Assembly: GCF_024599795.1 (NCBI RefSeq)
Contig: NZ_CP102246.1
Span: forward strand, 4,216,001-4,280,000
Source of the DNA: Enterobacter cloacae complex sp. R_G8
Lineage (GTDB): Bacteria; Pseudomonadota; Gammaproteobacteria; Enterobacterales; Enterobacteriaceae
Length of the DNA: 64,000 bases
Direction: 5' to 3'
The notes under the pieces are model-generated. The model was given only the letters and a program-made list of their open reading frames with translations, was not told the DNA's origin and did no database searches. Both the position numbers and the translations under genes were made by a program. Shown here in pieces: positions 44,350 to 61,903 of the stretch (the first letter of the stretch is position 1; each line of letters begins with the position of its first letter).

Positions 44350-44373
44350 TCCCGGTCCTGTTTACCCACTCCA

Positions 44374-44399
44374 AAGGCGGGAGTCTCTCCCGCCTTATT
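44374..44399 (+). terminator. Rho-independent terminator after dksA
   Basis: AAGGCGGGAG and CTCCCGCCTT pair around TCT, then TATTA. The T-run is weak, so read-through into gluQ (start 44409) is likely. Confidence 0.8.
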
Positions 44400-44408
44400 A
44401 CTGTTGAT

Positions 44409-45299
44409 ATGTCTGAATCTCACTATATCGGGCGCTTCGCGCCATCCCCCTCCGGTGAATTACATTTCGGCTCGTTAATTGCCGCTCTCGGCAGCTACCT
44501 GCAGGCGCGCGCAAGCCTGGGCAAATGGCTCGTTCGCATTGAAGATATTGATCCTCCGCGTGAAGTTCCCGGTGCAGCAGACACCATTCTGCGTCAGCTG
44601 GAACATTACGGTCTTCACTGGGACGGCGACGTTCTCTGGCAGTCAACACGTCACGACGCCTACCGGGAACGTCTGGCCTGGCTCGCGGAGCAGGGGCTGT
44701 CCTATAACTGCACCTGCACCCGCGCGCGCATCCAGAGCGTGGGGGGCGTCTATGACGGCCATTGCCGCACGCTCAATCACGGCCCGGAACACGCCGCCGT
44801 ACGTCTGTTGCAGCGCGCTCCCGTGCTCCACTTTAACGACCTGCTCTCCGGTGACATTCAGGCGGATGAGCGCCTGGCGCGGGAAGATTTTATTATTCAC
44901 CGCCGTGACGGACTGTTTGCCTATAACCTGGCGGTGGTGGTGGATGATCACTTTCAGGGCGTCACCGAAATTGTGCGCGGGGCCGATCTAGTTGAGCCTA
45001 CGGTGCGGCAAATAGCGTTGTATCACCAGTTTGGCTGGACCGCGCCGGATTACATTCATCTGCCGCTGGCCGTCAACGAACGGGGCAGTAAGCTGTCAAA
45101 GCAAAACCACGCCCCTGCCCTGCCAGACGGCGATCCGCGCCCCGTTTTGATCGACGCGTTGCGATTTCTCAACCAGAATGTAACCCATGAATGGCAGGAT
45201 CTGCACATTGACGAACTGCTGAAAATGGCCATTGCCAACTGGACGCTCAGGGCAGTGCCAAAAATCCAGCATTCTCAAATGCGTTGCGCTGAGCTATGA
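44409..45299 (+). CDS. gluQ: Glutamyl-Q tRNA(Asp) synthetase
   Basis: GluRS paralogue lacking the anticodon-binding domain; it attaches glutamate to queuosine in tRNA-Asp. It has 296 aa. The class I HIGH-like motif is [19 protein letters not shown], the KMSKS-like motif is [10 protein letters not shown], and zinc ligands lie in CTCTRAR and YDGHC. The C-terminus (about the last 40 residues) differs from E. coli. It is 59 nt after dksA, as in other enterobacteria. Also known as yadB/gluQRS. Confidence 0.96.
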
Positions 45300-45341
45300 T
45301 TAGCCGCTTTTTTCATAACAAAACACACTACGAGGTGTACC

Positions 45342-46739
45342 ATTTTTACCCGAGTCGCTAATTTTTGCCGTAAAGTGCTAAGCCGCGAAGAGAGCATGGC
45401 GAATGACGCTATTGCGCAACCCCACATGTCGGTTATTCCGCGTGAGCAGCACAATATTTCCCGCAAAGATATCAGTGAAAATGCCCTCAAGGTGCTCTAT
45501 CGTCTGAATAAAGCGGGCTACGAGGCCTATCTCGTTGGCGGTGGAGTACGTGATTTACTGCTGGGCAAAAAACCCAAAGATTTCGACGTGACGACCAGCG
45601 CCACGCCCGAGCAGGTGCGTAAATTATTCCGCAATTGCCGTCTCGTTGGCCGCCGTTTCCGTCTGGCTCACGTCATGTTCGGGCCAGAAATTATTGAGGT
45701 GGCGACGTTCCGTGGACACCACGAAGCGGGGGCATCCGATCGCACGACCTCCCAGCGCGGCCAGAACGGTATGCTGCTGCGCGACAACATCTTCGGTTCT
45801 ATCGAAGAAGATGCTCAGCGTCGCGATTTCACCATCAACAGCCTTTACTACAGTGTGGCGGATTTCACCGTGCGTGATTACGTCGGCGGCATGCAGGATC
45901 TGAAAGAAGGTCTGATTCGCCTGATCGGTACGCCGGAAACCCGCTATCGCGAAGATCCTGTGCGTATGCTGCGCGCCGTGCGTTTCGCCGCCAAGCTGGA
46001 TATGCGCATCAGCCCGGAGACGGCAGAGCCGATCCCGCGTCTGGCGACACTTATCAACGACGTGCCACCTGCCCGTCTGTTTGAAGAAGCGCTAAAACTG
46101 CTGCAAGCCGGTCACGGATTTGAAACCTACAACCTGCTGCGCGAATATAACCTTTTCCAGCCGTTATTCCCGACCATTACCCGCTACTTCACCGAAAATG
46201 GTGACAGCCCAATGGAACGCATGATTGCACAGGTGTTGAAGAATACCGACACCCGTATCCGCAACGATATGCGCGTGAACCCGGCGTTCCTGTTTGCGGC
46301 AATGTTCTGGTATCCGCTGCTGGAAACCGCTCAACGCATTACCCAGGAAAGCGGTCTCGCCTATTACGATGCTTTCGCGCTGGCGGCAAACGACGTGCTG
46401 GACGAAGGCTGTCGTACGCTGGCCATCCCGAAACGGATCACCACGCTGGTGCGCGATATCTGGCAGCTTCAGCTGCGTATGTCCCGTCGTCAGGGCAAAC
46501 GCGCCTGGAAGCTGATGGAGCATCCTAAGTTCCGCGCGGCCTTTGATCTGCTCTCTCTGCGTGCTGAAATTGAACGCAATCAGGAGCTGCAGCGTCTGGC
46601 GCAGTGGTGGGCCGAGTTCCAGGTCTCCGCACCGCCGGAGCAAAAAGATATGCTTACCGGCCTTGATGAAGAGCCGGCACCGCGTCGTCGTCACCGTCGT
46701 CCGCGCAAGCGCGCACCGCGTCGCGAAGGCACCGCATGA
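45342..46739 (+). CDS. pcnB: Poly(A) polymerase I, predicted AUU start
   Basis: Adds poly(A) tails that speed RNA decay; controls plasmid ColE1 copy number through RNA I. Starting at the ATT at 45342 gives (M)[17 protein letters not shown], the known E. coli N-terminus, and 465 aa, exactly the E. coli length. An AGG-rich site (ACGAGGTG) precedes it. E. coli pcnB is reported to use AUU. The later GTG at 45375 would lose 11 conserved residues. Catalytic motifs are [20 protein letters not shown] and the Asp pair DFD; the C-terminus is Arg-rich ([14 protein letters not shown]). Confidence 0.93.
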
Positions 46740-47215
46740 CCCTCGCGTATATCGCTATCGGCAGCAATCTGGCCTCTCCGCTGGAGCAGGTTAATGCTGC
46801 CGTTCAGGCGCTGGGTGAGATCCCCCAGAGCCGGATCGTCGCTGTCTCCTCTTTTTACCGCACACCACCGCTGGGACCTCAGGATCAGCCTGACTACCTG
46901 AACGCCGCCGTGGTGCTGGATACCGCGCTGGATGCCGAAACATTGCTGGATAACACCCAGCGAATCGAGTTGCAGCAGGGCCGCGTGCGCAAAGCCGAAC
47001 GCTGGGGACCCCGAACCCTGGACCTCGACATTATGCTGTTTGGCAACGAGGTGATTAACACCCCACGCCTGATTGTGCCGCATTACGACATGAAAAATCG
47101 TGGGTTTATGCTCTGGCCGCTGTTTGAAGTTGCCCCCGATCTCACCTTCCCGGACGGCATTCCGCTCAGGGACATTCTGGACAACCTCCACGCGGAAAAA
47201 CCCGCTCGCTGGTAA
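46736..47215 (+). CDS. folK: 2-amino-4-hydroxy-6-hydroxymethyldihydropteridine pyrophosphokinase
   Basis: Folate pathway enzyme that activates hydroxymethyl-dihydropterin with pyrophosphate. It has 159 aa. The HPPK signature [15 protein letters not shown] (residues ~83-97) holds the Mg-binding Asp pair. The N-terminus [19 protein letters not shown] is typical. It overlaps pcnB by 4 nt (ATGA). It is followed directly by the panB promoter region; in E. coli K-12 a fimbrial operon lies in this gap. Confidence 0.97.
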
Positions 47216-47231
47216 GCCTGCAACCCTGCCC

Positions 47232-47258
47232 ATTAGCCATAAAATAATTGTGGCTAAT
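47232..47258. repeat. Inverted repeat between folK and panB
   Basis: A perfect 8-bp inverted repeat, ATTAGCCA and TGGCTAAT, with an 11-nt AT-rich centre, lies 16 nt after folK. It could be a weak folK terminator or an operator; it is upstream of the panB -35. Confidence 0.5.
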
Positions 47259-47274
47259 CGACTACCTAAAATCA

Positions 47275-47302
47275 TTGTTCCCTCGAATGTTACTGTTAGA
47301 AT
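47275..47302 (+). promoter_or_regulatory. Candidate panB promoter
   Basis: TTGTTC, a 16-nt spacer and TAGAAT, placed 36 nt before the panB start. It is the best -35/-10 pair in the 123 nt folK-panB gap. Confidence 0.5.
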
Positions 47303-47338
47303 GCGCAAAGATTCGCTTTTGGGCTATCAGGAAACAGT

Positions 47339-48130
47339 ATGAAACCAACCACCATCTCCTTACTGCAGAAATGCAAACAGGAAAAGAGACGCTTCGCCAC
47401 CATCACCGCATATGACTACAGCTTCGCCAGACTGTTTGCCGAAGAGGGTATCAACGTCATGCTGGTCGGGGATTCGTTAGGGATGACGGTACAAGGGCAT
47501 GACTCCACCCTGCCGGTCACGGTCGAGGATATTGCCTACCACACCCGTGCCGTGCGCCGTGGCGCCCCCGCTTGCCTGCTGCTTTCCGATCTGCCGTTTA
47601 TGGCCTACGCCACGCCAGAGCAAGCTTTCGACAATGCGGCGGCCGTGATGCGTGCCGGTGCCAACATGGTCAAAATCGAAGGCGGCGCCTGGCTTGTGGA
47701 AACGGTAAAAATGCTCACCGAGCGCGCCGTGCCGGTGTGCGGTCATTTAGGCCTGACGCCACAGTCCGTCAATATCTTTGGCGGTTACAAGGTGCAAGGC
47801 CGTGGTGATGCCGCGCAGACGCTGTTTGATGATGCCCTCGCGCTGGAAGCGGCTGGCGCACAGTTGCTGGTACTGGAATGTGTCCCGGTGGAACTGGCAA
47901 AACGCATCACCGACGCGCTGTCGATTCCGGTGATTGGGATTGGCGCGGGCAACGTCACCGACGGTCAGATTCTGGTAATGCATGACGCCTTTGGTATTAC
48001 CGGCGGTCATATCCCGAAATTCGCCAAAAATTTCCTTACTGAAGCGGGCGACATGCGCGCCGCGGTCAGGCAGTATATTGCCGACGTCGAATCCGGTGTT
48101 TACCCGGGTGAAGAACACAGTTTCCATTAA
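47339..48130 (+). CDS. panB: 3-methyl-2-oxobutanoate hydroxymethyltransferase
   Basis: First step of pantothenate synthesis: adds a hydroxymethyl group from methylene-THF to alpha-ketoisovalerate. It has 263 aa and is a TIM barrel. Metal-binding and substrate segments are [20 protein letters not shown] and MVKIEGGAW, with a catalytic Glu in LECVPVELA near residue 181. It is 11 nt from panC. Confidence 0.98.
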
Positions 48131-48141
48131 GGAGTCTCGTT

Positions 48142-48993
48142 GTGCTAATCATTGAAACCCTGCCGCTGCTTCGCCAGCATATCCGTCGTGCGCGACAGGA
48201 AGGTAAACGTATTGCACTGGTCCCGACCATGGGTAACCTGCATGACGGCCATATGAAACTGGTCGACGAAGCGAAAGCCCGCGCAGATATCGTGGTGGTC
48301 AGTATCTTCGTTAATCCAATGCAGTTCGATCGCGCAGACGACCTGGCGCGCTATCCTCGTACGCTGCAGGAAGATTGCGAAAAACTGAAAAAACGCCATG
48401 CGGACTTCGTCTTCGCACCGGCACCTGCGGATGTGTACCCTCAGGGTACGGGAGAGGCAACGTACGTTGACGTCCCGGGTATTTCCACCATGCTCGAAGG
48501 GGCAAGCCGTCCAGGCCATTTCCGCGGCGTATCGACCATCGTCAGCAAGCTGTTCAATCTGGTGCAGCCTGACGTCGCCTGTTTCGGTGAGAAAGATTTC
48601 CAGCAGCTGGCGCTGATCCGCAAGATGGTGGCCGATATGGGCTATGATATCGAGATCGTGGGCGTGCCGATTGTGCGGGCTAAAGATGGTCTGGCGCTCA
48701 GCTCCCGTAACGGTTATCTGACCGCTGAGCAGCGTAAGATTGCCCCAGGATTAAGCAAAGTCATGAACACCATGGCAGAGCAACTGTTAGCCAAAGAGTT
48801 GTCCGCAGAGGAGATTGTCGCCCTCGCTGAGCAAGCGCTGAACGATAAAGGCTTCCGTGCTGACGACATTCAAATCCGTGATGCCGACACCCTGCTTGAG
48901 CTGACCGACGCCAGCAAACGCGCGGTTATTCTGGTGGCAGCATGGCTCGGTCAGGCGCGACTCATCGACAATAAAGTGGTCGAGCTGGCGTAG
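48142..48993 (+). CDS. panC: Pantothenate synthetase
   Basis: Joins pantoate and beta-alanine with ATP. It has 283 aa, the E. coli length, and a GTG start (48142) behind AAGGAG. Nucleotidyltransferase motifs are [15 protein letters not shown] (HIGH-type) and [13 protein letters not shown] (KMSKS-type). Only 59 nt separate it from panD. The E. coli insertion yadD (rpnC) is absent from this gap. Confidence 0.98.
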
Positions 48994-49005
48994 TATTCTT
49001 ACCCT

Positions 49006-49025
49006 CCCCTCTTACGAGAGGGGTT
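49006..49025 (+). terminator. Hairpin between panC and panD
   Basis: CCCCTCT-TACG-AGAGGGG, a tight stem with a UACG loop, followed by only TTAA. Probably a weak attenuator or mRNA stability structure within panBCD. Confidence 0.55.
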
Positions 49026-49052
49026 AACGCATGATGATTAAAGGTACACGTA

Positions 49053-49433
49053 ATGATTCGCAAAATGCTGCAAGGTAAGCTTCACCGTGTGAAAGTCACG
49101 CAGGCCGACCTGCACTATGAAGGCTCCTGCGCGATCGATCAGGATTTTCTCGACGCGGCGGGTATTCTTGAAAACGAAGCCATTGATATCTGGAACGTGA
49201 ACAACGGTAAACGTTTCTCCACCTACGCTATCGCTGCCGAGCGCGGATCTAAAATTATCTCCGTTAACGGTGCCGCCGCGCACTGTGCCGACGTGGGTGA
49301 TATTGTGATCATCGCGAGCTTCGTCATGATGTCCGACGAAGAGGCGCGCCGCTGGCAGCCTAAAGTGGCCTACTTTGAAGGTGACAACGAGATGAAACGC
49401 ACCGCGAAGGCGATCCCGGTGCAGGTTGCCTGA
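49053..49433 (+). CDS. panD: Aspartate 1-decarboxylase (pyruvoyl enzyme precursor)
   Basis: Supplies beta-alanine for pantothenate. It has 126 aa and is made as a proenzyme that cleaves itself at Gly24-Ser25 ([10 protein letters not shown]) to form the pyruvoyl cofactor on Ser25. The conserved Tyr58 and neighbouring [13 protein letters not shown] segment are present. It ends the pan run; the fimbrial operon leader begins after it. Confidence 0.98.
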
Positions 49434-49440
49434 ATCCGGT

Positions 49441-49471
49441 GAGGAGCGGATTTCTCAGGATCCGCTCCTTA
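49441..49471 (+). terminator. Hairpin after panD
   Basis: GGAGCGGAT and ATCCGCTCC pair around an 8-nt loop, 10 nt after panD. It lacks a proper T-run, so termination strength is uncertain. It is followed by a second, weaker dyad (AAGTA-CTTCA-TACTT, ~49481-49496). Confidence 0.6.
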
Positions 49472-49835
49472 AGTGACGATAAGTACTTCATACTTTTATC
49501 GCTAATAACATCACTCCTCATTTATTTATCCTGTTTCCCTCCCCCATCGCGCCTGTTTTTTTTAAAAAATACATTTCCCTAAATAATATAATAATGGAAA
49601 TGATCCTTACCATTTATAATTTATATCGTACCAGAATGCGTTCGACGCGCTAAAAAAACTCCTCCCTGCATTCTTTTATAGAATTTTCAAGATCATTTTC
49701 AGTAACTTATCCGGACCCTCACTTTTTCTAACGATGATATTAAGCAATTTTAAATACCCAACGCATTCAGAGATCCCTATCATCTTTTTTGCTTGAATTA
49801 CATCAGTGAAATGTTTTTTAAATGGAATTTTAATC
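49472..49835 (+). promoter_or_regulatory. AT-rich leader of the fimbrial operon
   Basis: About 360 nt with no credible gene, far more AT-rich than the flanking core genome. It contains T8 followed by A6 (49556-49569), a dyad CATTTCC/GGAAATG (49572-49602), a consensus -10 hexamer TATAAT (49615-49620) with no good -35, and a long-spaced repeat AGAATGC/GCATTCT (49633-49674). This suits an H-NS-silenced, activator-dependent fimbrial promoter. No recombinase gene or long terminal repeats of a fim-type switch are seen. Confidence 0.55.
49572..49602. promoter_or_regulatory. Dyad upstream of the fimbrial -10, candidate operator
   Basis: CATTTCC and GGAAATG, perfect inverse complements separated by 17 nt, end 12 nt before TATAAT. 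They occupy the place where a -35 element would lie, so a regulator binding here could replace or block sigma-70 contact. Confidence 0.5.
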
Positions 49836-50423
49836 ATGTTAAAAAAAACGCTATTAGCTTCAGTTGTAACTTTATTCGTAACAGGTTCTTTTTCAGCAAC
49901 TGCAGACACAGATCTGGGTTTAATCACCTTTGATGGTGCAGTAACTGATACAACATGTAATATTTCCACTTCTAATGGTGAAGCACAAAACAATATCACC
50001 ATCACCTTACCGGTTGTTAAAAAATCTGAGGTTGAATCCACCACCGTCGATACCGGCGTCGGCTCTAAGAATTTTGAACTGCTGCTCACCAACTGCCCTG
50101 AAACATTAAAGAGTGCGTCTGCAAACTTCATGTCTAAAAATATGGGTGCCATTGCAAACGGTACCATTGAACCTGACGCCGGCGTAGCAGGCGCAGCAAC
50201 GAACGTTGCACTTGCCCTGTATAACAATGCCCCAACAACCTCTTCTCGTATTATGGTCGGCCAGCCAGACAATAATACGCAGAAAGCCGACCTGAATGCA
50301 GGTTCCGCTAAACTGTTCTACCGCGTTGCTTATGTCCCTGGCGCCAACTGGGTGAAAGACACGAATCCTGTGCAGTCAGGTAAAGTCAGCGCCAACGCTT
50401 ACTTCACCATGAGCTACGAATAA
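49836..50423 (+). CDS. Probable major fimbrial subunit
   Basis: Chaperone-usher pilin, 195 aa, first in the operon and followed by an attenuator, which suggests it is the major shaft subunit. The signal peptide is MLKKTLLASVVTLFVTGSFS-ATA; I chose the ATG at 49836 since an earlier in-frame ATG adds ten non-signal residues. The mature part begins DTDLGLITFDGAVTDTTC, giving the donor strand then the first Cys; the second is in LLLTNCPETL. The C-terminus ends FTMSYE with the penultimate Tyr of the chaperone-binding motif. I do not recognise a specific named fimbria. Confidence 0.85.
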   Translation: MLKKTLLASVVTLFVTGSFSATADTDLGLITFDGAVTDTTCNISTSNGEAQNNITITLPVVKKSEVESTTVDTGVGSKNFELLLTNCPETLKSASANFMSKNMGAIANGTIEPDAGVAGAATNVALALYNNAPTTSSRIMVGQPDNNTQKADLNAGSAKLFYRVAYVPGANWVKDTNPVQSGKVSANAYFTMSYE

Positions 50424-50438
50424 TTTATCCCTGCCGCT

Positions 50439-50464
50439 AATGTGCCCCGCTGGGCACATTTTTC
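50439..50464 (+). terminator. Attenuator between major pilin and chaperone
   Basis: AATGTGCCC-CGCT-GGGCACATT followed by TTTTCG. It lies 16 nt after the pilin stop and 20 nt before the chaperone start. Expected to make pilin mRNA exceed assembly-gene mRNA. Confidence 0.88.
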
Positions 50465-50484
50465 GTATTTTTTCGAGAATATAC

Positions 50485-51222
50485 ATGTACGTACTGAATA
50501 TTAAGAGCGGATTAAAAGCCCTGCTGCTGGCCTCGGTGAGCGTTTTTGCTCTTAACGCCAGTGCAGATATTGTCATTTCTGCCACCCGTATCATTTATCC
50601 TGAATCGGCAAAGGACGTAACGGTATCGATGGATAACCGTGGCACCCGGCCTTTACTGGTACAAACCTGGCTCGACGACGGAAGAGATAGCACCAATCCT
50701 CAGGAGCTCAAACTTCCCTTTATTGTTACCCCCCCGGTTTCGCGTGTTGAACCGCAAAAAGGGCAAACCGTCAGAATCACCTGGCTTGGTCAGACATTGC
50801 CAAAAGATAAAGAGTCCCTGTTCTGGTTTAACGTTCTGGAAGTTCCGCCAAAAGCAAAGGAGAGCGACAACCAAAGCATGCTTCAGCTTGCTTTCCGTAC
50901 CCGCATAAAACTCTTTTTCCGTCCTACAGGGTTGAAAGGGGAACCGACAGAGGCAGCCAAAAATCTTAAATGGTCTCAAACCCGACAAGGGCAAAAAGTC
51001 GTTTTAAGTGCGAAAAATGACTCGCCGTATTATGTTTCGCTGGCGAGTGCATCGCTTATTTCAGGCGGTAAACGTTACGAGATCGAAACGCATTATATTG
51101 AGCCGTTCTCAAGCCAGACAATGAATGTGAAAAACGCCCCCCTGACAGGCAATAGCAAAATAACCTGGCAAGCCATCAATGATTACGGTGGAATTGATAA
51201 ATATGAGTTTATACAGAATTGA
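50485..51222 (+). CDS. Periplasmic fimbrial chaperone (PapD-like)
   Basis: Folds and caps pilins by donor-strand complementation and hands them to the usher. It has 245 aa; the start MYVLNIKSGLKALLLASVSV gives a signal peptide ending FALNASA. Mature DIVISATRIIYPE has the conserved Arg (Arg8 in PapD), and RTRIKLFFRPTGL has the Lys (Lys112). The region between LFWFNVLEVPP and QLAFRTRIKLF is short, so it is an FGS-type chaperone. An upstream ATG at 50440 lies inside the attenuator and is rejected. The stop is at 51220-51222. Confidence 0.92.
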   Translation: MYVLNIKSGLKALLLASVSVFALNASADIVISATRIIYPESAKDVTVSMDNRGTRPLLVQTWLDDGRDSTNPQELKLPFIVTPPVSRVEPQKGQTVRITWLGQTLPKDKESLFWFNVLEVPPKAKESDNQSMLQLAFRTRIKLFFRPTGLKGEPTEAAKNLKWSQTRQGQKVVLSAKNDSPYYVSLASASLISGGKRYEIETHYIEPFSSQTMNVKNAPLTGNSKITWQAINDYGGIDKYEFIQN

Positions 51223-51287
51223 CCCTGTATTCATTTCATATCATTCGCAAGAACTATAATTGGCTTTGCTCTTGGACAGAGTTCATC

Positions 51288-53867
51288 ATGCACTTTAGAC
51301 GTTCGCTACTATGTTTATCGATAAGTGCGGTATTGCCGTTATGTGCATTTGCTGCTGAAAATAATAAAGAAGAAGACGTGCAGTTTAACGAGCAGTTTCT
51401 TTATAACACCGGTGCATCAATTGATGTCAGTCGCTTTTCAAAGGGCAACCCTGTAATTGCCGGAACATATAAGGTGAAGGTGATTATTAACGGGAAACCT
51501 TCCGTTACCACGGACCTTCTCTTTAAGGAGAATGGTACTCCACGCGCCACGCCCTGTATCACCCCTAAACTGCTCACTCAGGCAAATGTCACCATCGAGC
51601 AACTTAAACAAGCAGAGGGAGATTCTGAGGACACCTGTGTCTCTGTGTCGAACGCCTATCCCGGGTCACGCGTGGCTTACGATCCTTCCACTCAGGAGTT
51701 AGACCTTTCCATTCCGCAGGCTTTCGTTATTCAGCGTCCCTCAGGGTTTGTCGATCCTTCGCTTTGGGAAGACGGTATCCCGGTAGCCATGCTCTCCTGG
51801 GATCTCAATGGCTGGCACGCCGACACGCCTGACTCCAGCACTGATACGGCCTATGCAGGCTTACGCTATGGGGCAAATCTGGGGCCATGGCGACTCCGCG
51901 CACGCGGCAACCTGAACTGGGATCAGGATTCCGGTACCCATTACGCCAGCCAGGACATTTATCTTCAGCGTGATATCACGCCCCTTAAAGCGCAGTTTAT
52001 CGCCGGAGATTCCTATACCCGTGGTGACGCCTTCGATTCCATTAGCCTGCGCGGGGCGCGTTTATATAACGATGACCGTATGCTTCCTAACGGCATATCA
52101 ACCTATGCGCCGGTGATCCGGGGAGTCGCAAACAGTAATGCCAAAGTCACGATCGCCCAAAGTGGCAATACGATTTACGAAACGTCCGTACCGCCAGGGC
52201 CATTTGAAATCTCGGATCTCAGTACAACAGGTTACGGAAGCGATCTTATCGTCACGGTAGAAGAGACGGATGGGAGCAAACGTTCCTTCTCAGTCGCCTA
52301 TTCTTCCGTCGCGCAAATGCTTCGCCCTGGCTACTCGCGATGGGATATCGGCGTAGGTGAACTGCGTGACGACAGCCTGCACGACAAACCAATGGTGGGA
52401 TATGCCACGGGGTATTATGGCTTAACCAATACCTTCACGGGCTATGCAGGGCTGGAATACACCGATAGCGATTTCTACGCCGCATTGCTGGGTATTGCGA
52501 TGAATACCCGTGTGGGTGCATTCGCCTTTGATGCCACGCATTCTGACGCCCGGATTGACGGCTTACGACATCTCACCGGCGAAAGTTATCGCATCTCCTA
52601 CAGCAAACTCATGGAAGCCACGAATACCTCTTTCAACGTCGCCGCTTACCGGTTTTCAACGTCTGACTACCTCAGCCTGAATGATGCAGCCTCGTTGACC
52701 AATGAGATCAAATACCGTGACAGGGAACGTAACCCTGAACGTAATAACCGCGACGTGTATCAGACCTTCCAGCGCATGAAAAACCAGATCCAGGTAAATA
52801 TCAGCCAGCCGTTGAAAATGGCTGACCTTGATTTGGGATCGCTGTATGTCAACTCAACCTGGCAGGACTACTGGAATGAAAGTAGTTCGTCCGCGCAATA
52901 CTCCGTTGGCCACAGTCATTCGCTAAGCTGGGGAAGTTATAGCCTCTCCGTGCAGCGCACCTACAATGAGTTCGGGGAAAAAGATGACAGTGTCTATCTG
53001 AACCTCACTATTCCATTCGACACGCTGATGGGTAACGGCAAGCGTGCGGGCGGATTCTCCTCACTCACGACGGGCATCGGCAGCGATTTACAAGGTGGCG
53101 GGAGTTTTAACGCCAGCGCCAATGGCAGCACTGAAGATAATCGCTTCAGTTACAGCATTACCGAAAGCACCACGCGTAATGACGATACGTTAAACCAGCT
53201 CAGCAGCTACGGCAGTTACAACGGCCCGCATGGACCGATGAGCCTTTCCGTCTCAGCCTCAGATGACGATTCGCGGCAATATTCTGCCAGCTACAGCGGC
53301 GGGTTGGTTCTGCACTCGGGTGGCGTAACACTTGCACCCGGCAGCATCAGCGAAAGCGATACGCTTGCGTTGATTAAAGCAGAGGGAGCAGACGGTGCCC
53401 GCGTCTCTACCGGTAATGGCGAAATCGGCGCCTCAGGCTATGCCGTTATGCCCTATCTGTCCGCCTACCGTGAAAACAGCGTAGGTCTTGATATCAGCGA
53501 GATGCGCTCTGACGTGGAAGTGAAAAATACCCGCTCCACCACCGTTCCCCGCAGCGGTGCCGTTGTGCTGGTTAACTTTGAAACCGATCAGGGGCGTTCC
53601 GTGTTAATGGAACTGACGCGTGACGACGGTGGATTTATTCCATTAGGCGCCGATGTGCAAACCGACCAGGGCGTATCCGTGGGTAGCGTGGGTCAGGCCG
53701 GGCAAGCCTGGATCCGCGGAATTGAAGATAAAGGAACGTTAAACATCGTCTGGGGAAGTGAGCCGGGCTCATCCTGTAGCGCCACCTACCAGATCCCACC
53801 GGATGCGAAAAAGATTGGACCGACAACGCTGCTGACGGGCCAGACCTGCCACGTTACAGCCTTATAA
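51288..53867 (+). CDS. Outer-membrane fimbrial usher
   Basis: Secretes and polymerises pilins. It has 859 aa from MHFRRSLLCLSISAVLPLCA, with cleavage near FAA; an earlier in-frame TTG start would bury the signal and is rejected. The N-terminal domain starts VQFNEQFLYNTGASIDVSRF, then the 24-strand barrel with a plug near residues 230-330 (LYNDDRMLPNGISTYAPVIR). The C-terminal domain ends with a cysteine pair (GSSCSATYQIPP ... GQTCHV). It follows the chaperone with a 65 nt gap. Confidence 0.93.
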   Translation: MHFRRSLLCLSISAVLPLCAFAAENNKEEDVQFNEQFLYNTGASIDVSRFSKGNPVIAGTYKVKVIINGKPSVTTDLLFKENGTPRATPCITPKLLTQANVTIEQLKQAEGDSEDTCVSVSNAYPGSRVAYDPSTQELDLSIPQAFVIQRPSGFVDPSLWEDGIPVAMLSWDLNGWHADTPDSSTDTAYAGLRYGANLGPWRLRARGNLNWDQDSGTHYASQDIYLQRDITPLKAQFIAGDSYTRGDAFDSISLRGARLYNDDRMLPNGISTYAPVIRGVANSNAKVTIAQSGNTIYETSVPPGPFEISDLSTTGYGSDLIVTVEETDGSKRSFSVAYSSVAQMLRPGYSRWDIGVGELRDDSLHDKPMVGYATGYYGLTNTFTGYAGLEYTDSDFYAALLGIAMNTRVGAFAFDATHSDARIDGLRHLTGESYRISYSKLMEATNTSFNVAAYRFSTSDYLSLNDAASLTNEIKYRDRERNPERNNRDVYQTFQRMKNQIQVNISQPLKMADLDLGSLYVNSTWQDYWNESSSSAQYSVGHSHSLSWGSYSLSVQRTYNEFGEKDDSVYLNLTIPFDTLMGNGKRAGGFSSLTTGIGSDLQGGGSFNASANGSTEDNRFSYSITESTTRNDDTLNQLSSYGSYNGPHGPMSLSVSASDDDSRQYSASYSGGLVLHSGGVTLAPGSISESDTLALIKAEGADGARVSTGNGEIGASGYAVMPYLSAYRENSVGLDISEMRSDVEVKNTRSTTVPRSGAVVLVNFETDQGRSVLMELTRDDGGFIPLGADVQTDQGVSVGSVGQAGQAWIRGIEDKGTLNIVWGSEPGSSCSATYQIPPDAKKIGPTTLLTGQTCHVTAL

Positions 53868-53880
53868 AGGGAGTTAAAAC

Positions 53881-54459
53881 ATGCTTTTTAAAGCCTGGAA
53901 AAAAACAGGATTCTTTATTTTAAGTACAGGGCTGATGGCCCTGTCACTGGAATCATACGCGGACACACTCGATATTACTTTTACCGCTAATATCCGCGAC
54001 ACCACCTGCGATATGAAAATTGAAGGCGGCAGCGGTGATGGCAGCAGCAACGTTATCCCCATTGGCACTAACGGCAAGGTGCGCCTGGATTACATCATCC
54101 TGAAAAATGCCAAAGCGACGACCAACTTTAAACTCAAAATGGTCTCCTGCCCGTCAAGTCTGACATCGCTGAAAACAACCATTAGCGGTAGTGCCAGCCC
54201 TGTAACTACGGCCATTAAGAACTCACTCTCCGGCGAAGGCAGCGCGGAGCATATTGGTGTGGCGATTTCCCGCACCGCCACCCCGGATGCCCCGTTTGTC
54301 ATCAATTCATTCACCGATACGCAGCGCCTCATCTGGTCGAGCGGAGAAATAAGTGCTGGCGAGGTTTCACTCCTGGCGACGCTGGTGGAAACCGCAAGCG
54401 GGCAAGGCACGACCGGCAACTTTAGCGGTATCGCTACGTTTAATTTCACCTATGAATAA
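53881..54459 (+). CDS. Minor fimbrial subunit 1
   Basis: Pilin-domain protein of 192 aa. The signal peptide starts MLFKAWKKTGFFILSTGLMA and ends ESYA. The mature N-terminus DTLDITFTANIRDTTC has an alternating-hydrophobic donor strand before the first Cys; the second Cys is in KMVSCPSSL. The C-terminus FNFTYE keeps the penultimate Tyr. It is preceded by a GGGAG site 13 nt after the usher. Of the minor subunits, it looks most like a shaft or adaptor pilin. Confidence 0.85.
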   Translation: MLFKAWKKTGFFILSTGLMALSLESYADTLDITFTANIRDTTCDMKIEGGSGDGSSNVIPIGTNGKVRLDYIILKNAKATTNFKLKMVSCPSSLTSLKTTISGSASPVTTAIKNSLSGEGSAEHIGVAISRTATPDAPFVINSFTDTQRLIWSSGEISAGEVSLLATLVETASGQGTTGNFSGIATFNFTYE

Positions 54460-54483
54460 CTGGCAGCAATACGGAGCGTTGAG

Positions 54484-55041
54484 ATGAAAAAGAAAATGAC
54501 ATTACTGGTGCTTGCGATGACTGCCACCCTGCCTTCCGTTGCGTTAAGCACCATTACAGGCACCACAAGCGTTGAGGCCACGTTTACGTCCACCATAGAG
54601 GCCGGCACCTGCAATGCGGAGATACAAGATGCCGGCGGAGCACCTATAAGCATTTTACCGTTTGGCGACGTGTTTAAGTCCGACCTTGTGAGCAAGAACC
54701 GAAGAGGGGCATTCAAAATCGCGTTCACCAATTGTGCCGGGGTCAAAAATGCCGCCATTCAGGCCACGCCGGGGGCAGGCGGGTCGTGTACCGGTAATGC
54801 TAAAAATGGAACCTCGTATGCCGCCGGGCATAACGTCGGTTTTGAAATCTGGAAAGGCACTGTCGACTCAGGCTCCCTGTTGAACTGCGCCACAGCCCCG
54901 ACCTCTCTCGTCAACCTCTCTAACGGGACGGGGAAGTTTGAAATGGATGCGCGCATCGTCATTGCGCAAGATAAAACGATTTCTGACGTGACCACGGGGT
55001 CGGTCAGCGCACCAGTGACGTTTATCGTGACCTATCAATAA
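54484..55041 (+). CDS. Minor fimbrial subunit 2
   Basis: Pilin-domain protein of 185 aa. The signal peptide is MKKKMTLLVLAMTATLPSVA followed by LS. The mature part has VEATFTSTIEAGTC, with Cys pair partner in KIAFTNCAG, and it has two more cysteines (GGSCTGNAKNG and LLNCATAPT), an unusual second possible disulfide. It ends FIVTYQ. A CGGAG site lies ahead; its stop overlaps the next ATG by one base. Confidence 0.85.
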   Translation: MKKKMTLLVLAMTATLPSVALSTITGTTSVEATFTSTIEAGTCNAEIQDAGGAPISILPFGDVFKSDLVSKNRRGAFKIAFTNCAGVKNAAIQATPGAGGSCTGNAKNGTSYAAGHNVGFEIWKGTVDSGSLLNCATAPTSLVNLSNGTGKFEMDARIVIAQDKTISDVTTGSVSAPVTFIVTYQ

Positions 55042-55676
55042 TGTTAATTCAGACAGGTAGCTTAAACAGGATGTTCCACTCCCGCTTCTTTATTAAAAAT
55101 AGGGTGTCCTGGCTCACCCTCTGCCTGGGTTTTCCCGCTGCGGGGATTACCTCAAGCCTGGAAATGGATATGACGGCAAACATTATCAACAATACGTGCC
55201 AGGTGAGTATTCCTGATAACGGAAACGTAACGCTGCCAACGGTGGGAAGGGCGTGGTTTTATACTGCGGATGGCGCCGATCGCCTTAAGCCAGCGGACCC
55301 CGCAGGAGGAACACGCTTCATGATTCAGGTGTTGGACTGTAGCGGGGATGAATCCGGAGCCGGGCAAGCGCTGCACTTTACCTTTAAACCACAGTCTGCC
55401 CAAATTGATGGCATTTCCAAACAAATATTCAGTAATGAGACGTCCGCCATCGCAGGCGGCGCAGAGAATGTGGGGATTGTCATTTTTTCAGAATCCAGTA
55501 ATCAAAACGTCCTCGACAGCGAGGGGCAGTCTGATGTGGCAGTCAAAATAGCCACGCCTTCAGACCCGCAAAGCTATTTGAAAGCGTATAACTTTTACGC
55601 CCGCTACCAAAATTACGGCCCGGTCAGCGCAGGAAAAGTGACCGCGCGCGCATTGGTCAGCGTGACATATCGCTAA
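55041..55676 (+). CDS. Minor fimbrial subunit 3
   Basis: Pilin-domain protein of 211 aa from the coupled ATG at 55041 (TAATG); an ATG at 55071 (MFHSRFFIKNRVSWLTLCLG) would give a shorter signal and is a real alternative. The mature part has LEMDMTANIINNTC as donor strand and first Cys; the second Cys is in IQVLDCSGD. The C-terminus ends LVSVTYR. It probably works as an adaptor near the tip, just before the adhesin gene. Confidence 0.82.
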   Translation: MLIQTGSLNRMFHSRFFIKNRVSWLTLCLGFPAAGITSSLEMDMTANIINNTCQVSIPDNGNVTLPTVGRAWFYTADGADRLKPADPAGGTRFMIQVLDCSGDESGAGQALHFTFKPQSAQIDGISKQIFSNETSAIAGGAENVGIVIFSESSNQNVLDSEGQSDVAVKIATPSDPQSYLKAYNFYARYQNYGPVSAGKVTARALVSVTYR

Positions 55677-55700
55677 CAGGCAACGCTAAAAGGAAGAACT

Positions 55701-56774
55701 ATGGCACAGCGTCCTGGGATAACTGTTTCCCCACGTTTTTACGGTTTTATTATTTTATTTATGTGCTTAACCATGAGTGCCTTTTACGCCAGTGCAGCCG
55801 AGGAGTGCCAGATTGGGAGTGCTAAGCCACGTGCGGTTGGCGATTTTACGGGTGGAAAACCGACGTTAAGAGCGGTGGATGCCGTCACCGCTCCCACAAA
55901 AATCAGTACCCTCTATCCCTTAAGCCTAACCCCCCGGTTGATGAGCGTATGCTCAGGTGGACAACATGGAGAAAACATCTTTACCGCAACACGGGCTACC
56001 CTGCAGGTGGGCAGCATCGACGGTAAAGCCTTATTCAAAACCAATGTGACCGGCATTGCTTATGCCCTGGCGTTTCGAACAATAGGTACGGGAGTCACGG
56101 CCTATTTTGCCCCCAGCACAAACTGGTTTCTGACGTTACATTTGGAGGATCAGGATGAATTATTGCAATACCGAACCTGGGAGGCCGCGGTCGAGTTTTA
56201 TCAGCTTCCCAGCTTTGCCGGGGTTCCCGCGGAGGTGGTCTCCGTTGGCCCTGCCGGAGGGACTATCGGAGACTTTGGTATTGGCGATCCCTATGCACCT
56301 AATGATGACCATCCAGGCACAACCATCAGCATTGCCGACATGGCATTCACAACACCAATAATAAAACCAACCTGCACCCTTACGGCCCCCAAAACCGTGG
56401 ATCTGGGGGATTATGGTGTATCCGACCTGGAGAACGATAACACCTTAAACGTATATGCGGCGGTGTCCGGGAATTGCACCAACACACGTAAAATCACCAT
56501 GAAGTTGACCACCAGTAAGACCACCGGCACTGATGGCACATTACTCGCCAATACCGCATCCTCGAATGCAGCAAAAGGCGTAGGAGTGTTTCTGATGTGG
56601 CCGGACAACAGCCAGGTGGTGCCTAATTCCACTAACAGCTATACCACGCGGGAGAACACCACCATTGCATTATTCAGCCGGTTACTTACGGCCCGGTTAG
56701 TTAAGTCTGGTACAGAAAAAGTCACCTCTGGCACGTTCAGCGCCATCGGCACCCTGCAGTTCACCTATGAGTAA
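55701..56774 (+). CDS. Putative two-domain fimbrial tip adhesin
   Basis: It has 357 aa with an AAGGAAG site. The signal peptide ends at AFYASA. The N-terminal domain (mature residues ~33-220) starts AEECQIGSAKPR and has a second Cys in LMSVCSGG; it has no N-terminal donor strand and is not a sequence I recognise. The C-terminal pilin domain starts near IIKPTCTLTAPKTVDLGDYG, with Cys pair partner in SGNCTN, and ends LQFTYE. The layout matches FimH-like tip adhesins. The receptor is unknown. Its stop lies one base from the yadE stop on the other strand. Confidence 0.85.
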   Translation: MAQRPGITVSPRFYGFIILFMCLTMSAFYASAAEECQIGSAKPRAVGDFTGGKPTLRAVDAVTAPTKISTLYPLSLTPRLMSVCSGGQHGENIFTATRATLQVGSIDGKALFKTNVTGIAYALAFRTIGTGVTAYFAPSTNWFLTLHLEDQDELLQYRTWEAAVEFYQLPSFAGVPAEVVSVGPAGGTIGDFGIGDPYAPNDDHPGTTISIADMAFTTPIIKPTCTLTAPKTVDLGDYGVSDLENDNTLNVYAAVSGNCTNTRKITMKLTTSKTTGTDGTLLANTASSNAAKGVGVFLMWPDNSQVVPNSTNSYTTRENTTIALFSRLLTARLVKSGTEKVTSGTFSAIGTLQFTYE

Positions 56775-56775
56775 T

Positions 56776-58023
56776 TTATCCCTGCGGCTGGTTACTGATC
56801 AGCCGCGACATCGTCTCCAGCGAATCCGTTCTTAAGATATACAGGCGTTTCAGTAAGAACGGATTATCCCCCGGCTTAACCTTCCCTTTCACCGTCGTGA
56901 CGGCCAGATGAAAACCGGCGTCATTCGCGGCTTTTATCGCTTTGTTGTCGTAGCCACCAAAGGGATAAGAGAGATACAGTACGCGCGGGTTAAACTGCGC
57001 CAGCCCCCGCCGCGAGCGTTCAAAATCAAACAAAATCACGTGGTAGCTGCGGCTCAGTAAAATCGGATGTTTATTACCATCGACGCGGTGCAGGAAGTGC
57101 GTGTGGGACTGAATATCGAACACGTCCTGGATGCCCTTCAGCTCCTGAACGCTCATAAACTGCAGCGATTTTGGATCCCACTTCTGGGGATGGCGCTTAA
57201 TGCGCGATGAGATGATAAATGCCGTGGCGTTAAACCCGTACTCTTTCAGAATCGGGTAAGCGTAGCGGCTCACGGATTTCAGCCCGTCATCAAAGGTGAT
57301 CACCACCGATTTAGCAGGCAGGTTCATTTTGTTACGCACGTACCCTTCCAGTTGATACATCGTCAGGGTGGTATACCCCTGGTCGCGCAGCCAGGCCATC
57401 TGGTTATTGAACGCACGCACGCTGGTGGTGGTAGACGTATGTCGAAAACGCGTGTTCTCTTCATCACGCAAAATATGATGGTAGGTCAGAACCGGGAGGC
57501 CGTTATCTTCCTGCGCATCCAGGCTGCTGATCCACGCCAGACGGTTACCGATGCGAATCTGGTACCAGGTCTGGTTTAAGCGGTCCTTGAGTTTGCTTAA
57601 AACCGGGTAACGCAGATTGGCGCTCAACGTTCCGAATGGCGCACTGCCGCTGGACGGCGCGTTGTACACCGGTGTGTCTTTCCAGGTGATCAGGTTTTGA
57701 TTACTGAGCGGCTTATTAAGATCGCCAAGGCTGTCCTCAACGCGCTGCTTTCCCTGCACCTGCTCCAGATGGCCTTTATCAATAAAGCCTGTCCCAAATC
57801 CGAAGCGAAACTCGTAGTAATCCGCAGCGGTAGGCACAACGGCGAGGATCTGTCCGGCGCTGACATGGCCGACGTTCACGACTTCATTACCCACCTGCGC
57901 CCAGATAGCCGCATCCTCGGTGGTTTGCATGTACTGGGCTGGAAGACCTTGCTGACTTAATAAACTGGCTGATGCCCCACCAGAGAGAACCAGCAGGAAC
58001 AGGAACAAAATACGCGTGAACAT
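56776..58023 (-). CDS. yadE: Putative polysaccharide deacetylase YadE
   Basis: Secreted or periplasmic NodB-type deacetylase, substrate unknown. It has 415 aa from [20 protein letters not shown], which gives a signal peptide; a longer upstream start is rejected. The C-terminal deacetylase domain shows [11 protein letters not shown] (metal Asp pair), [10 protein letters not shown] (His pair) and [10 protein letters not shown]. The N-terminal ~180 residues may hold SH3-like segments ([20 protein letters not shown]). It is last of yadI-yadE and tail-to-tail with the adhesin gene. Confidence 0.92.
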
Positions 58024-58086
58024 GTCTGTGATATCGGTACGAATAAACTGATGCCATTGTAACAAATGCACCATCAATACCAATGT

Positions 58087-58527
58087 TTAATTCTTATACA
58101 GGTCGTGAAGCAGGACAAAGGGAGGATTTTTCTGCTGTTGATGCCACAAGCTGCTGACGCCCAGCTCACCTTGTGCCACGATGGCATGGCGAAACTCTGC
58201 GCTGCTTAATAATTCACGCTGTGGATACATTAACTCCAGTAAGGGAAGGTTAATGCCGGAGATCACTTCACAGCAGTCGTGTTTGTGGCTCAGTAAGGAG
58301 GCGGCGCGATACGGCGCTGCACCCGATTTATCGGTGAGAAAGATAACACCTTCGCCGGTGTCGGTTTCATGCAGAGCATCGCACATCATCCGGCTCAACA
58401 TGTTGGTGCTCAGCCCTTGCCAGTAATTCACCGCGCGACACTGCGCCAGTGGACCAAACCTGGCTTCAAGCTTTATCAACATCTCCTGCGCCTGTTCATC
58501 GTGGCAGGTAATGACCCATCCCAGCAT
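58087..58527 (-). CDS. yadI: PTS mannose-family EIIA component YadI
   Basis: Phosphocarrier-type EIIA domain of 146 aa, the E. coli length. His9 in VITCHDEQAQEML is the likely phosphorylation site, and GVIFLTDKSGAAPYRAASLL fits the family fold. No EIIB or EIIC partners are nearby, so it may act in regulation or with another transporter. It lies 63 nt ahead of yadE, probably co-transcribed. Confidence 0.92.
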   Translation of the reverse strand: MLGWVITCHDEQAQEMLIKLEARFGPLAQCRAVNYWQGLSTNMLSRMMCDALHETDTGEGVIFLTDKSGAAPYRAASLLSHKHDCCEVISGINLPLLELMYPQRELLSSAEFRHAIVAQGELGVSSLWHQQQKNPPFVLLHDLYKN

Positions 58528-58594
58528 AACGTTCTCTCCTTAGCAGGCGAGTAGTTTAGCGGAGTGAAGATTAGCTTACGGTGATAACAGTCAA

Positions 58595-58630
58595 AGAAAA
58601 GTGCCCGGCAACCAGAAAGCCACCGGGCGG
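58595..58630 (-). terminator. Terminator after yadH
   Basis: The minus strand has GCCCGG and CCGGGC around a 14-nt loop (58603-58628), then ACTTTTCTTT. It lies just past the yadH stop. Confidence 0.75.
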
Positions 58631-58634
58631 AAGG

Positions 58635-59405
58635 TTAGCTGCGCAGTCCGCGCCCGCGCTGGATTAAATACCAGCACAGCAGGTAGAAGGCGACGATAAA
58701 CACCACCAGCACCGCCACTGTGGTAAACAGCGGAACGTCAGTAATACCGAGGAAGCCGAAGCGGAACCCGCTGATCATGTAGACAATCGGGTTCAGGTGC
58801 GACAACGCCTGCCAGAACGGCGGCAGCAACGTCAGGGAGTAGAACACCCCACCCAGATAGGTCAGCGGGGTCAGGACAAAGGTCGGGATCAGGCTGATAT
58901 CGTCAAACGTTTTGGCAAACACCGCGTTCAGCAGACCGGCAAGCGAGAACAGGATCGCCGTCAGCAGCAGCGTCAGCCCCACGAACAGCCAGGAGTGCAC
59001 CTGGAACGGCACGAAGAATAAGGAGATAGCCGTCACCAGGATCCCGACGCACAGGCCGCGCGCCACGCCGCCGCCGACGTAGCCCGCGATGATCACATGC
59101 GTTGGTACCGGCGCCACCAGCAGCTCCTCAATGTTGCGCTGGAACTTAGCGCTAAAGAATGACGAAGCCACGTTGGCGTAGGCGTTGGTGATCACCGCCA
59201 TCATGATCAAACCCGGAACGATAAACTGCATATAGGTAAAGCCGTGCATCTCACCAATGCGGGAACCAATCAGGTTACCGAAGATGATGAAATAGAGCGT
59301 CATGGTGATCACCGGTGGCACCAGGGTTTGTACCCAGATGCGCATAAAGCGGTTGATCTCTTTCGCCCAGATGCTTTTCAGCGCGACCCAATAAAGATGC
59401 GTCAT
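58635..59405 (-). CDS. yadH: ABC-2 type transporter permease YadH
   Basis: Inner-membrane permease of 256 aa with about six membrane segments. The ABC-2 motif is visible in the C-terminal half (FVLTPLTYLGGVFYSLTLLP). The N-terminus MTHLYWVALKSIWAKEINRF is typical of the YadH/NodJ family. It overlaps yadG by 4 nt and forms an exporter with it. Substrate is unknown. Confidence 0.95.
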   Translation of the reverse strand: MTHLYWVALKSIWAKEINRFMRIWVQTLVPPVITMTLYFIIFGNLIGSRIGEMHGFTYMQFIVPGLIMMAVITNAYANVASSFFSAKFQRNIEELLVAPVPTHVIIAGYVGGGVARGLCVGILVTAISLFFVPFQVHSWLFVGLTLLLTAILFSLAGLLNAVFAKTFDDISLIPTFVLTPLTYLGGVFYSLTLLPPFWQALSHLNPIVYMISGFRFGFLGITDVPLFTTVAVLVVFIVAFYLLCWYLIQRGRGLRS

Positions 59406-60328
59406 GCCTTGTCTCCTTGTTTATCCTGCACCAGAGAGACAAACAGCTCTTCCAGTCGGTTCGCTTTGTTGCGCATACTTAAAACCTGAATGCCCTGGGC
59501 ACTCAACTGGGAGAAGACGCTGTTGATGCCCTGCTCCCGCAATACTTCGACTTCCAGCGTGGAGGTATCGACCAGACGATACTGGTACCCTTCAAGCTTC
59601 GGCAGCGCGCTTTTTGCCGCCAGATCGAGAATGAACGTCTCTGATTTCAGCTTCGAGAGCAGATCCTTCATCGAGGTATTTTCCACCAGCTCACCGTTCT
59701 GAATGATGCCGATGTTGCGGCACAGCATTTCCGCCTCTTCAAGGTAGTGCGTCGTCAGAATAATGGTGGTGCCTTTGTCGTTGAGATCCTTCAGGAACCC
59801 CCACATTGAGCGACGCAGCTCAATATCTACCCCGGCGGTGGGCTCGTCGAGGATCAGCAGTTTCGGCTCATGCATCAGCGCACGAGCAATCATCAGACGG
59901 CGCTTCATGCCGCCAGACAACATACGCGCACGTTCGTTACGCTTTTCCCATAGATCGAGTTGTTTCAGGTACTTTTCACTGCGTGCTAACGCTTCTTTTC
60001 GCTCTACGCCGTAGTAGCCCGCCTGGTTGACGACGATCTGCTGCACCGTCTCAAACGGGTTGAAGTTAAACTCCTGCGGTACCAGACCAAGCTGACGTTT
60101 AGCGTTGACCACATCTTTTTGCAGATCGTAACCAAAGACGCTGACCCGGCCAGAGGTCTTATTGACCAGCGAACTGATAATGCCGATGGTCGTCGATTTC
60201 CCCGCGCCGTTCGGCCCCAGAAGCGCATAGAAATCCCCTGCCTCTACTTTGAGATCTATCCCGCGTAGCGCCTGAACGCCGCCCGGATAGGTTTTTTTAA
60301 GCTGCTCAAGCTCCAGTGCAATCGCCAT
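59402..60328 (-). CDS. yadG: ABC transporter ATPase YadG
   Basis: ATPase partner of YadH. It has 308 aa, the E. coli length. Walker A is LLGPNGAGKSTTIGII, the signature is RMLSGGMKRRLMIARAL, Walker B is KLLILDEPTAGVDIELR, and the His switch is TTHYLEEAE. The C-terminal ~80 residues after the ATPase core are family-specific. It is divergent from can with a 107 nt gap. Confidence 0.96.
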   Translation of the reverse strand: MAIALELEQLKKTYPGGVQALRGIDLKVEAGDFYALLGPNGAGKSTTIGIISSLVNKTSGRVSVFGYDLQKDVVNAKRQLGLVPQEFNFNPFETVQQIVVNQAGYYGVERKEALARSEKYLKQLDLWEKRNERARMLSGGMKRRLMIARALMHEPKLLILDEPTAGVDIELRRSMWGFLKDLNDKGTTIILTTHYLEEAEMLCRNIGIIQNGELVENTSMKDLLSKLKSETFILDLAAKSALPKLEGYQYRLVDTSTLEVEVLREQGINSVFSQLSAQGIQVLSMRNKANRLEELFVSLVQDKQGDKA

Positions 60329-60435
60329 GAATTAAACTTACCTTAGGTTCTGACACACGTTGTGTGGTTTCATTAAAAGTCGGGTTACCCTATAGTAGCG
60401 CAACGCAATCACTCGGTTACAGGTCGCTAACCTCC

Positions 60436-61098
60436 ATGAACAACATAGATACACTCATCAGCAACAATGCACTATGGTCAAAAATGCTGGTGGAGGAAGA
60501 CCCCGGATTTTTTGAAAAGCTTGCGCAAGCGCAGAATCCACGCTTTCTCTGGATTGGATGTTCCGACAGCCGTGTTCCGGCTGAGCGCCTGACGGGCCTT
60601 GAGCCCGGCGAACTGTTTGTTCACCGTAACGTTGCCAACCTGGTGATTCATACCGATCTCAACTGCCTGTCTGTGGTTCAGTACGCCGTTGATGTTCTGG
60701 AAGTCGAGCACATCATTATTTGCGGTCACTACGGCTGCGGTGGCGTGCAGGCGGCGGTCGAAAATCCGGAACTGGGGCTCATCGATAACTGGCTGCTGCA
60801 CATCCGCGATATCTGGTTCAAACATAGCTCACTGCTGGGTGAAATGCCGCAGGAACGCCGGATGGACACGCTGTGTGAACTGAACGTGATGGAGCAGGTG
60901 TATAACCTGGGTCATTCAACGATCATGCAGTCAGCGTGGAAGCGCGGGCAGAAGGTCTCTATCCACGGCTGGGCATACGGTATTCATGACGGTCTGCTGC
61001 GTAACCTCGAAGTGACCGCCACCAACCGCGAAACGCTGGAACAGCGTTACCGTTCAGGAATTGCCAACCTTAAGCTTAAGCACGTGAACCATAAATAA
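60436..61098 (+). CDS. can: Beta-class carbonic anhydrase
   Basis: Interconverts CO2 and bicarbonate, essential in air for bicarbonate-dependent carboxylations. It has 220 aa from [20 protein letters not shown], the E. coli length; a longer in-frame start is rejected. Zinc ligands are Cys42 and Asp44 in [12 protein letters not shown], and His98 and Cys101 in [11 protein letters not shown] dispersed palindromic element follows it. Confidence 0.98.
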
Positions 61099-61108
61099 AG
61101 CCGGGGGT

Positions 61109-61160
61109 TTTCTCCCTCTCCCTGTGGGAGAGGGCTGGAGTGAAGGCACCAGGCCGCACT
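61109..61160 (+). repeat. Dispersed palindromic element, copy 4
   Basis: TTTCTCCCTCTCCCTGTGGG then AGAGGGCTGGAGTGAAGGC and ACCAGGCCGCAC. It lies between the convergent genes can and hpt, and its last two bases overlap the hpt stop codon. The 3' half is slightly diverged from the other copies. Confidence 0.85.
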
Positions 61161-61695
61161 ACTCGTCCAGAAGCACAACCTTCCCAACATACGGCAGATG
61201 ACGATAACGCTGCGCATAGTCAATGCCGTAACCGACGACGAATTCGTCCGGAATGGAGAAGCCCACAAACTCCACCGGCACCTGCACTTCACGGCGGTCT
61301 GGTTTATCCAGCAGAGTACAGATGGCCAGGGATTTCGGCTCACGCAGACTCAGGATCTCGCGCACTTTAGAAAGCGTGTTACCGGAGTCGATGATGTCTT
61401 CGACGATCAACACATCTTTGCCACGAATATCTTCATCCAGGTCTTTCAGGATTTTCACATCACGGGTTGTGGACATGCCGCTGCCGTAGCTGGAGGCGGT
61501 CATAAAATCGACCTCATGTGACACCTGCACTTCACGGCACAGATCTGCCATGAACATGAAAGAGCCACGCAACAGACCGACCAGCACCATTTCGCTGCCG
61601 CTGTCCTTGTAATGTTCGGTGATTTGACGACCCAGTTCGGCGATACGCGCTTTGATCTCGGCTTCCGGGATCATCACTTCAACAGTATGTTTCAT
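61159..61695 (-). CDS. hpt: Hypoxanthine phosphoribosyltransferase
   Basis: Purine salvage, mainly hypoxanthine to IMP. It has 178 aa from [20 protein letters not shown]; four extra residues from an earlier ATG lack a ribosome site. The PRPP-binding motif is [15 protein letters not shown] (residues ~100-114). The flexible loop [15 protein letters not shown] is present. It is divergent from gcd with a 208 nt regulatory region. Confidence 0.98.
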
Positions 61696-61824
61696 ATTAC
61701 TAACCATATGATTTTAATGAAAATCTCTCAATGCGGATGAACGTTATTCCGGCATCGATACGCAAGCCAGCCATTATATCAGCAAATGGCTAAGCCTGGC
61801 GCATGAGTTATAAAAAGCAAATAT

Positions 61825-61840
61825 TGTGATTCCGATCACA
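61825..61840. promoter_or_regulatory. Perfect CRP site between hpt and gcd
   Basis: TGTGA-TTCCGA-TCACA matches the CRP consensus core exactly. A good -10 hexamer TATAAT for gcd lies at 61853-61858; the site covers the matching -35 position, which suggests CRP represses gcd, as reported for E. coli gcd. Confidence 0.85.
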
Positions 61841-61903
61841 CTTGTTAATACCTATAATTAGTTGCTAGCAAATTATTAACAAAAACTGACGAGTACACTT
61901 TCT

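Follow-up and report, generated by a model that had tools for sequence, protein, structure and literature searches.

A Stk-type chaperone-usher operon between panD and yadE in Enterobacter, within an interval that recurrently carries fimbrial operons

Background

For the fimbriae of the chaperone-usher family, donor-strand assembly via a chaperone and an usher is well established. This paper concerns one operon of this family, which lies between panD and yadE in a stretch of 64,000 nucleotides (the window) of the Enterobacter cloacae complex sp. R_G8 genome (assembly GCF_024599795.1, contig NZ_CP102246.1, positions 4,216,001 to 4,280,000 of the forward strand). The closest described systems are the Stk fimbriae of Salmonella (stkA-G), the Yad fimbriae of E. 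coli (yadN-yadV-htrE-yadMLKC) together with Salmonella Sta, and the Sti fimbriae. The yad operon of E. coli K-12 is found between panB and folK, as the initial annotation of the window had stated, and panD and yadE are 3 bp apart there. A passage of PMC3373541 lists stk among the newly identified gamma4 members, places stk and sta in gamma4, and states that at analogous loci certain Salmonella operons have taken the place of others, while a passage of PMC3559732 gives Yad and Sta a shared locus position. That one fimbrial operon may supplant another at a fixed site is thus, as far as these passages go, an idea already known. On the other hand, no published description was found of a stk operon between panD and yadE, of a copy split around panBCD, of a survey of the four junctions described below or of a genome with three operons there, in a search that left most subscription papers outside and so leaves their absence unproven. 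We propose, with a probability of about 0.82, that the window carries a complete Stk operon, that its gain, loss and replacement within the genus came about most likely by homologous recombination in the flanking genes, and that the interval from pcnB to can, in which it lies, is a recurrent site for such operons.

Results

A complete Stk-type operon between panD and yadE

Seven open genes (49836-56774) occupy the gap between panD and yadE, in the order that the initial annotation had given, i.e. major pilin, chaperone, usher, three minor pilins and adhesin. By their Pfam domains they comprise five Fimbrial proteins (PF00419), one PapD_N/PapD_C chaperone and one PapC_N/Usher/PapC_C usher, all above the curated cut-offs, the weakest match being that of the second minor pilin at 26.0 bits (cut-off 25.6). 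A PapD-like chaperone, a three-domain usher and pilin subunits, the parts of a chaperone-usher fimbria, therefore stand in one operon, and all seven genes also exceed NCBIfam equivalog cut-offs. The features are as follows.

49053..49433, + strand: panD, upstream neighbour
49434..49835, + strand: A+T-rich leader, with a 10-bp perfect hairpin at 49442-49469
49836..50423, + strand: stkA, major pilin (NCBIfam PRK15307 StkA, 285 bits, cut-off 259; Pfam Fimbrial)
50485..51222, + strand: stkB, periplasmic chaperone (PapD_N, PapD_C; PRK09926, 367.8 bits, cut-off 285)
51288..53867, + strand: stkC, outer-membrane usher of 859 amino acids (PapC_N, Usher, PapC_C; PRK09828, 1320.8 bits, cut-off 830)
53881..54459, + strand: stkD, minor pilin (PRK15306, 299.5 bits, cut-off 205)
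54484..55041, + strand: stkE, minor pilin of the StaE family (PRK15263.1-2, 242.2 bits, cut-off 213)
55041..55676, + strand: stkF, minor pilin (PRK15262, 219.4 bits, cut-off 132)
55701..56774, + strand: stkG, predicted two-domain tip adhesin (PRK15305 StkG, 452.8 bits, cut-off 329; model and fold matches)
56776..58023, - strand: yadE, polysaccharide deacetylase, convergent downstream neighbour

The operon fits precisely between the stop codons of panD and yadE, which are convergent, so that neither gene is broken by it; stkG ends at 56774, one base ahead of the yadE stop codon, and the start of stkF overlaps the stop codon of stkE. The stkB frame is open from 50440, and a chaperone start at 50485 is more likely than one at 50440. 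The folK-panB and yadH-yadI junctions are uninterrupted in the window, in agreement with the initial annotation.

As the StkA and StkG equivalog cut-offs, among others, are exceeded, the operon is, judged by its sequence, of the Stk type, a kind known from Salmonella, and not a new type; Enterobacter records already label the adhesin 'fimbrial protein StkG'. Salmonella usher proteins, the type of which is not named in their records, are 59-63% identical to the window usher, a comparison by pairwise identity only, as the usher tree described below was built without the typed StkC of PMC9238391. Against the other stk ushers of the genus, the subtype of the window usher is at most 67% identical, compared with 91-95% within a group of six same-genus genomes. 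Yad and Sta share with the window operon the gene order, the NCBIfam usher family, a sister usher clade and the neighbourhood; E. coli Yad differs in its place between folK and panB rather than between panD and yadE, and in an usher, HtrE, to which the window usher is 47% identical. Sti, between yadI and yadH, shares the pcnB-can interval but has another gene content and an usher of another family, 31-32% identical; the window usher scores 355 bits against the StiC model, the equivalog cut-off of which is 1422. The initial annotation had named a tight grouping with HtrE-type or Sti ushers as the outcome that would speak for mere rearrangement; the window usher groups tightly with neither, and since it lies outside the HtrE-type clade, we rejected the view of the operon as a relocated Yad operon in the tight sense.

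Close relatives recorded as Enterobacter cloacae, Enterobacter genomosp. O and Lelliottia nimipressuralis carry this operon at the same site. None of 5426 E. coli genomes had a place covering 80% of the operon query, and the best E. coli matches among those listed (15) were 75 bases inside yadE. In the 4.95-Mb chromosome of the window's own genome (G000) there are 12 usher places (13 matches, of which two share a frame), so the Stk operon is one of many fimbriae there.

Adhesin, assembly and leader

The predicted model of StkG has two domains, with fold matches to CupB6, LpfD and FimH, and Pfam places a pilin domain in residues 215-356; by prediction, StkG thus has the N-terminal receptor domain and C-terminal pilin domain of a FimH-type tip adhesin. 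Homology and fold suggest that StkG is a two-domain tip adhesin that would bind a surface sugar or protein. FimD/PapC are among the relatives of the stkC product in PDB. By analogy with the family, donor-strand assembly would proceed here too: StkB would fold the pilins in the periplasm and pass them to the StkC usher, which would secrete StkG first, then StkF, StkE and StkD as tip and adaptor, and then the StkA rod.

The A+T-rich leader that had been noted ahead of the operon was borne out (34.3% G+C at 49434-49832, against 54.6% for the window), though its start had to be moved from 49472 to 49434; the stkA ATG is at 49836. Its hairpin and A+T-rich stretch probably serve as panD terminator and as promoter or silencing region of the operon. 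PMC13245861 reports that H-NS silences the E. coli Yad operon, in which the minor subunits and the adhesin also vary, and by analogy with Yad H-NS may regulate the window operon. An invertible promoter was unsupported, the inverted repeats of the leader being short or imperfect. Ruled out were a tRNA-associated island (no tRNA in 44000-64000), a known RNA element (none at the gathering threshold in 45300-61800) and a recent plasmid source (all 2231 matching plasmid records below 60% identity to the usher).

Distribution and allele exchange within the genus

Among 35 further genomes of the genus, the operon stands between panD and yadE in 17, no operon is there in another 17, and in one (G007) it is split. 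Wherever checked, the same-genus operons at this site have seven genes in the same order, and G449 appears to be without stkA and stkF, i.e. not all copies are complete. At operon-free sites a few bases separate the stop codon of panD from that of yadE, except in G013 (L025), where 46 bp that include a hairpin remain at an otherwise empty site, perhaps the trace of an operon that was lost. Loss may explain many of the empty sites. A StkC-type usher was found in 27 of 61 genomes of the genus, window included, downstream of panD in 26 and upstream in G007.

The usher tree comprised 47 rows, with G285 (broken), G198 (internal stop), G369, G292 and G418 left out and G007 represented by a partial piece of 759 amino acids. 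Yad and Stk ushers form sister clades of one NCBIfam family (PRK09828), the HtrE-type clade with support 100/100 and the Stk-type clade with 94/98, and the G201 usher (50% identity) is not resolved between the two. Within the Stk-type clade, the 27 panD-yadE rows plus G007 are joined at 98/97, and the six-genome subclade of the window at 100/100. By the approximately unbiased (AU) test, a single clade of panD-yadE ushers was not rejected (p-AU 0.478), while a single clade of folK-panB ushers was (p-AU 1.7e-6).

For 18 same-genus rows, the usher tree and a tree of the flanking genes reject each other; G024 and G021, sisters in the flank tree, carry ushers from different subclades. Furthermore, sliding identities showed the expected switch of nearest relative at the operon edges for G033, and for G024 against G021. 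The tree conflict and these two edge footprints suggest that Stk alleles were probably swapped within the genus through homologous recombination in the flanks. Gain and loss of the operon, and its replacement by a different Stk allele, would most likely have come about via the conserved flanking genes. Within the usher subclade of the window, the tip end is more variable than the usher, and independently so: the identities of usher, StkF and StkG to those of the window are 95, 62 and 61% in G020, 93, 83 and 93% in G033, 94, 88 and 72% in G017, 92, 81 and 71% in G003, and 91, 60 and 57% in G009.

Several observations weigh against the proposed reading. The flank tree was built from no more than eight genes, all from this neighbourhood and perhaps affected by recombination themselves, and G009, which has the usher type of the window, shows no clear switch of nearest relative at the operon edges. 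In addition, the full-length template-modelling (TM) scores of Foldseek for StkG against FimH are low, about 0.3, and no sigma-70 consensus site was found on the plus strand of the leader.

The pcnB-can interval across the family

Across the 35 same-genus and 104 other-genus loci, ushers were found at four junctions, i.e. panD-yadE, folK-panB, yadI-yadH and, once, pcnB-folK. The other-genus sample consisted of the best 104, by panD similarity, of 232 genomes in which panD had a match; G259, where the match lay at the end of a contig, was excluded. Several loci are cut short by contig ends (e.g. L039 and L148), and as the survey reached 20 kb, operons farther out could be missed. In these 104 loci an usher lies downstream of panD in eight (one with a broken frame, one without yadE) and immediately 5' of panB in 12, while three have it between yadI and yadH and one has it between pcnB and folK; for the 12, labelled folK-panB, folK is beyond the stretch read, and the label means that no folK lies between usher and panB. 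In G386 (L067, L175) three operons share one interval, HtrE-type at panB, Stk with an additional pair of minor pilins between panD and yadE, and Sti-type between yadI and yadH, where the usher is a StiC equivalog (1592.9 bits). The StiC-equivalog ushers of G317 and G386 adjoin yadH, with yadI on the far side, which fits the position that the initial annotation had given for sti. The pcnB-can interval is therefore a recurrent site of fimbrial operons in the family, as that annotation had suggested in calling the region a repeated target.

In G193 (L061) the Stk operon is present and no yadE was found between it and yadI. Gaps of ~1.2-1.6 kb separate panC from panD, where K-12 has rpnC, in L071, L074, L075, L076, L077, L079, L082, L083, L090, L096 and L097, and gaps of ~1.1 kb separate panB from panC in L108, L114 and L118.

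Discussion

How the different operons came to lie in one interval admits several explanations. It is quite possible, if short of probable, that Yad, Stk and Sti each arrived on their own, at separate junctions of a single hotspot. As the initial annotation expected of independent insertions, different junctions hold different usher clades; yadI-yadH even holds two unrelated families, StiC in G317 and G386 and PRK15304 in G431 (L070), and all three types stand together in G386. Such operons do travel: in five genomes from other genera, Stk-like ushers (50-56% identity) are on a different contig from panD or a long way from it. That the operons at folK-panB and panD-yadE are fully independent was not supported, however: Yad and Stk ushers are sisters in operons of the same gene order that flank panBCD on either side, and Stk-type genes stand at the Yad position in G007 and G107.

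A tentative alternative is that one ancestral Yad/Stk operon moved across panBCD in one or more steps, of which the split in G007 records one. In this genome stkA-F lie between folK and panB (L152, L035), panBCD thus being inside the operon, and an isolated adhesin of 373 amino acids, preceded by an A+T-rich leader, stands between panD and yadE. The match of this adhesin to the StkG model extends along the full protein but is weak (39.8 bits, E 2.5e-10, cut-off 329), and its best same-genus matches (35-36% identity, nearly full length) come from G449, G458, G034 and G457, all with an usher downstream of panD, although the adhesin of G457 is on another contig than its usher. As a single panD-yadE clade was not rejected and a folK-panB clade was, single or several local moves are as open as separate acquisition. 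On the other hand, only one split genome was found among the 61 of the genus with an usher placed, the tree does not settle where G007 stands relative to the other panD-yadE ushers (monophyly in 44% of bootstrap trees), other-genus Stk-like ushers from elsewhere in the genome branch below G007, and two operons followed by two losses would leave the same layout. G107, of another genus, also has stkA-F between folK and panB; no adhesin was found between its panD and yadE, nor any match to the G007 adhesin in its genome at E 1e-5.

A broader picture, which we regard as rather unlikely, is that the panBCD neighbourhood is a cassette-exchange locus, with docking at four junctions, allele swaps via the flanking housekeeping genes and piecemeal carriage across panBCD; G007 would then be an intermediate in which the pantothenate genes lie between minor pilins and tip adhesin. 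Vertical descent from an operon at panD-yadE in the genus ancestor with many losses only is very improbable: the site is fixed, presence is less scattered than shuffled labels (7 changes against a mean of 12.3) and the G013 remnant resembles a deletion scar, but usher and flank trees strongly reject each other, and flank sisters G024 and G021 differ in usher subclade.

The reading that we prefer, a complete Stk operon exchanged within the genus through its flanks, ties Yad, Stk and Sti, the positions of which are usually regarded as unrelated, to a single short interval of housekeeping genes. The split in G007 makes it directly testable whether Yad and Stk are one relocated operon. The locus would also offer a worked case of how Enterobacter species exchange adhesive surface structures with no phage, plasmid or tRNA site involved.
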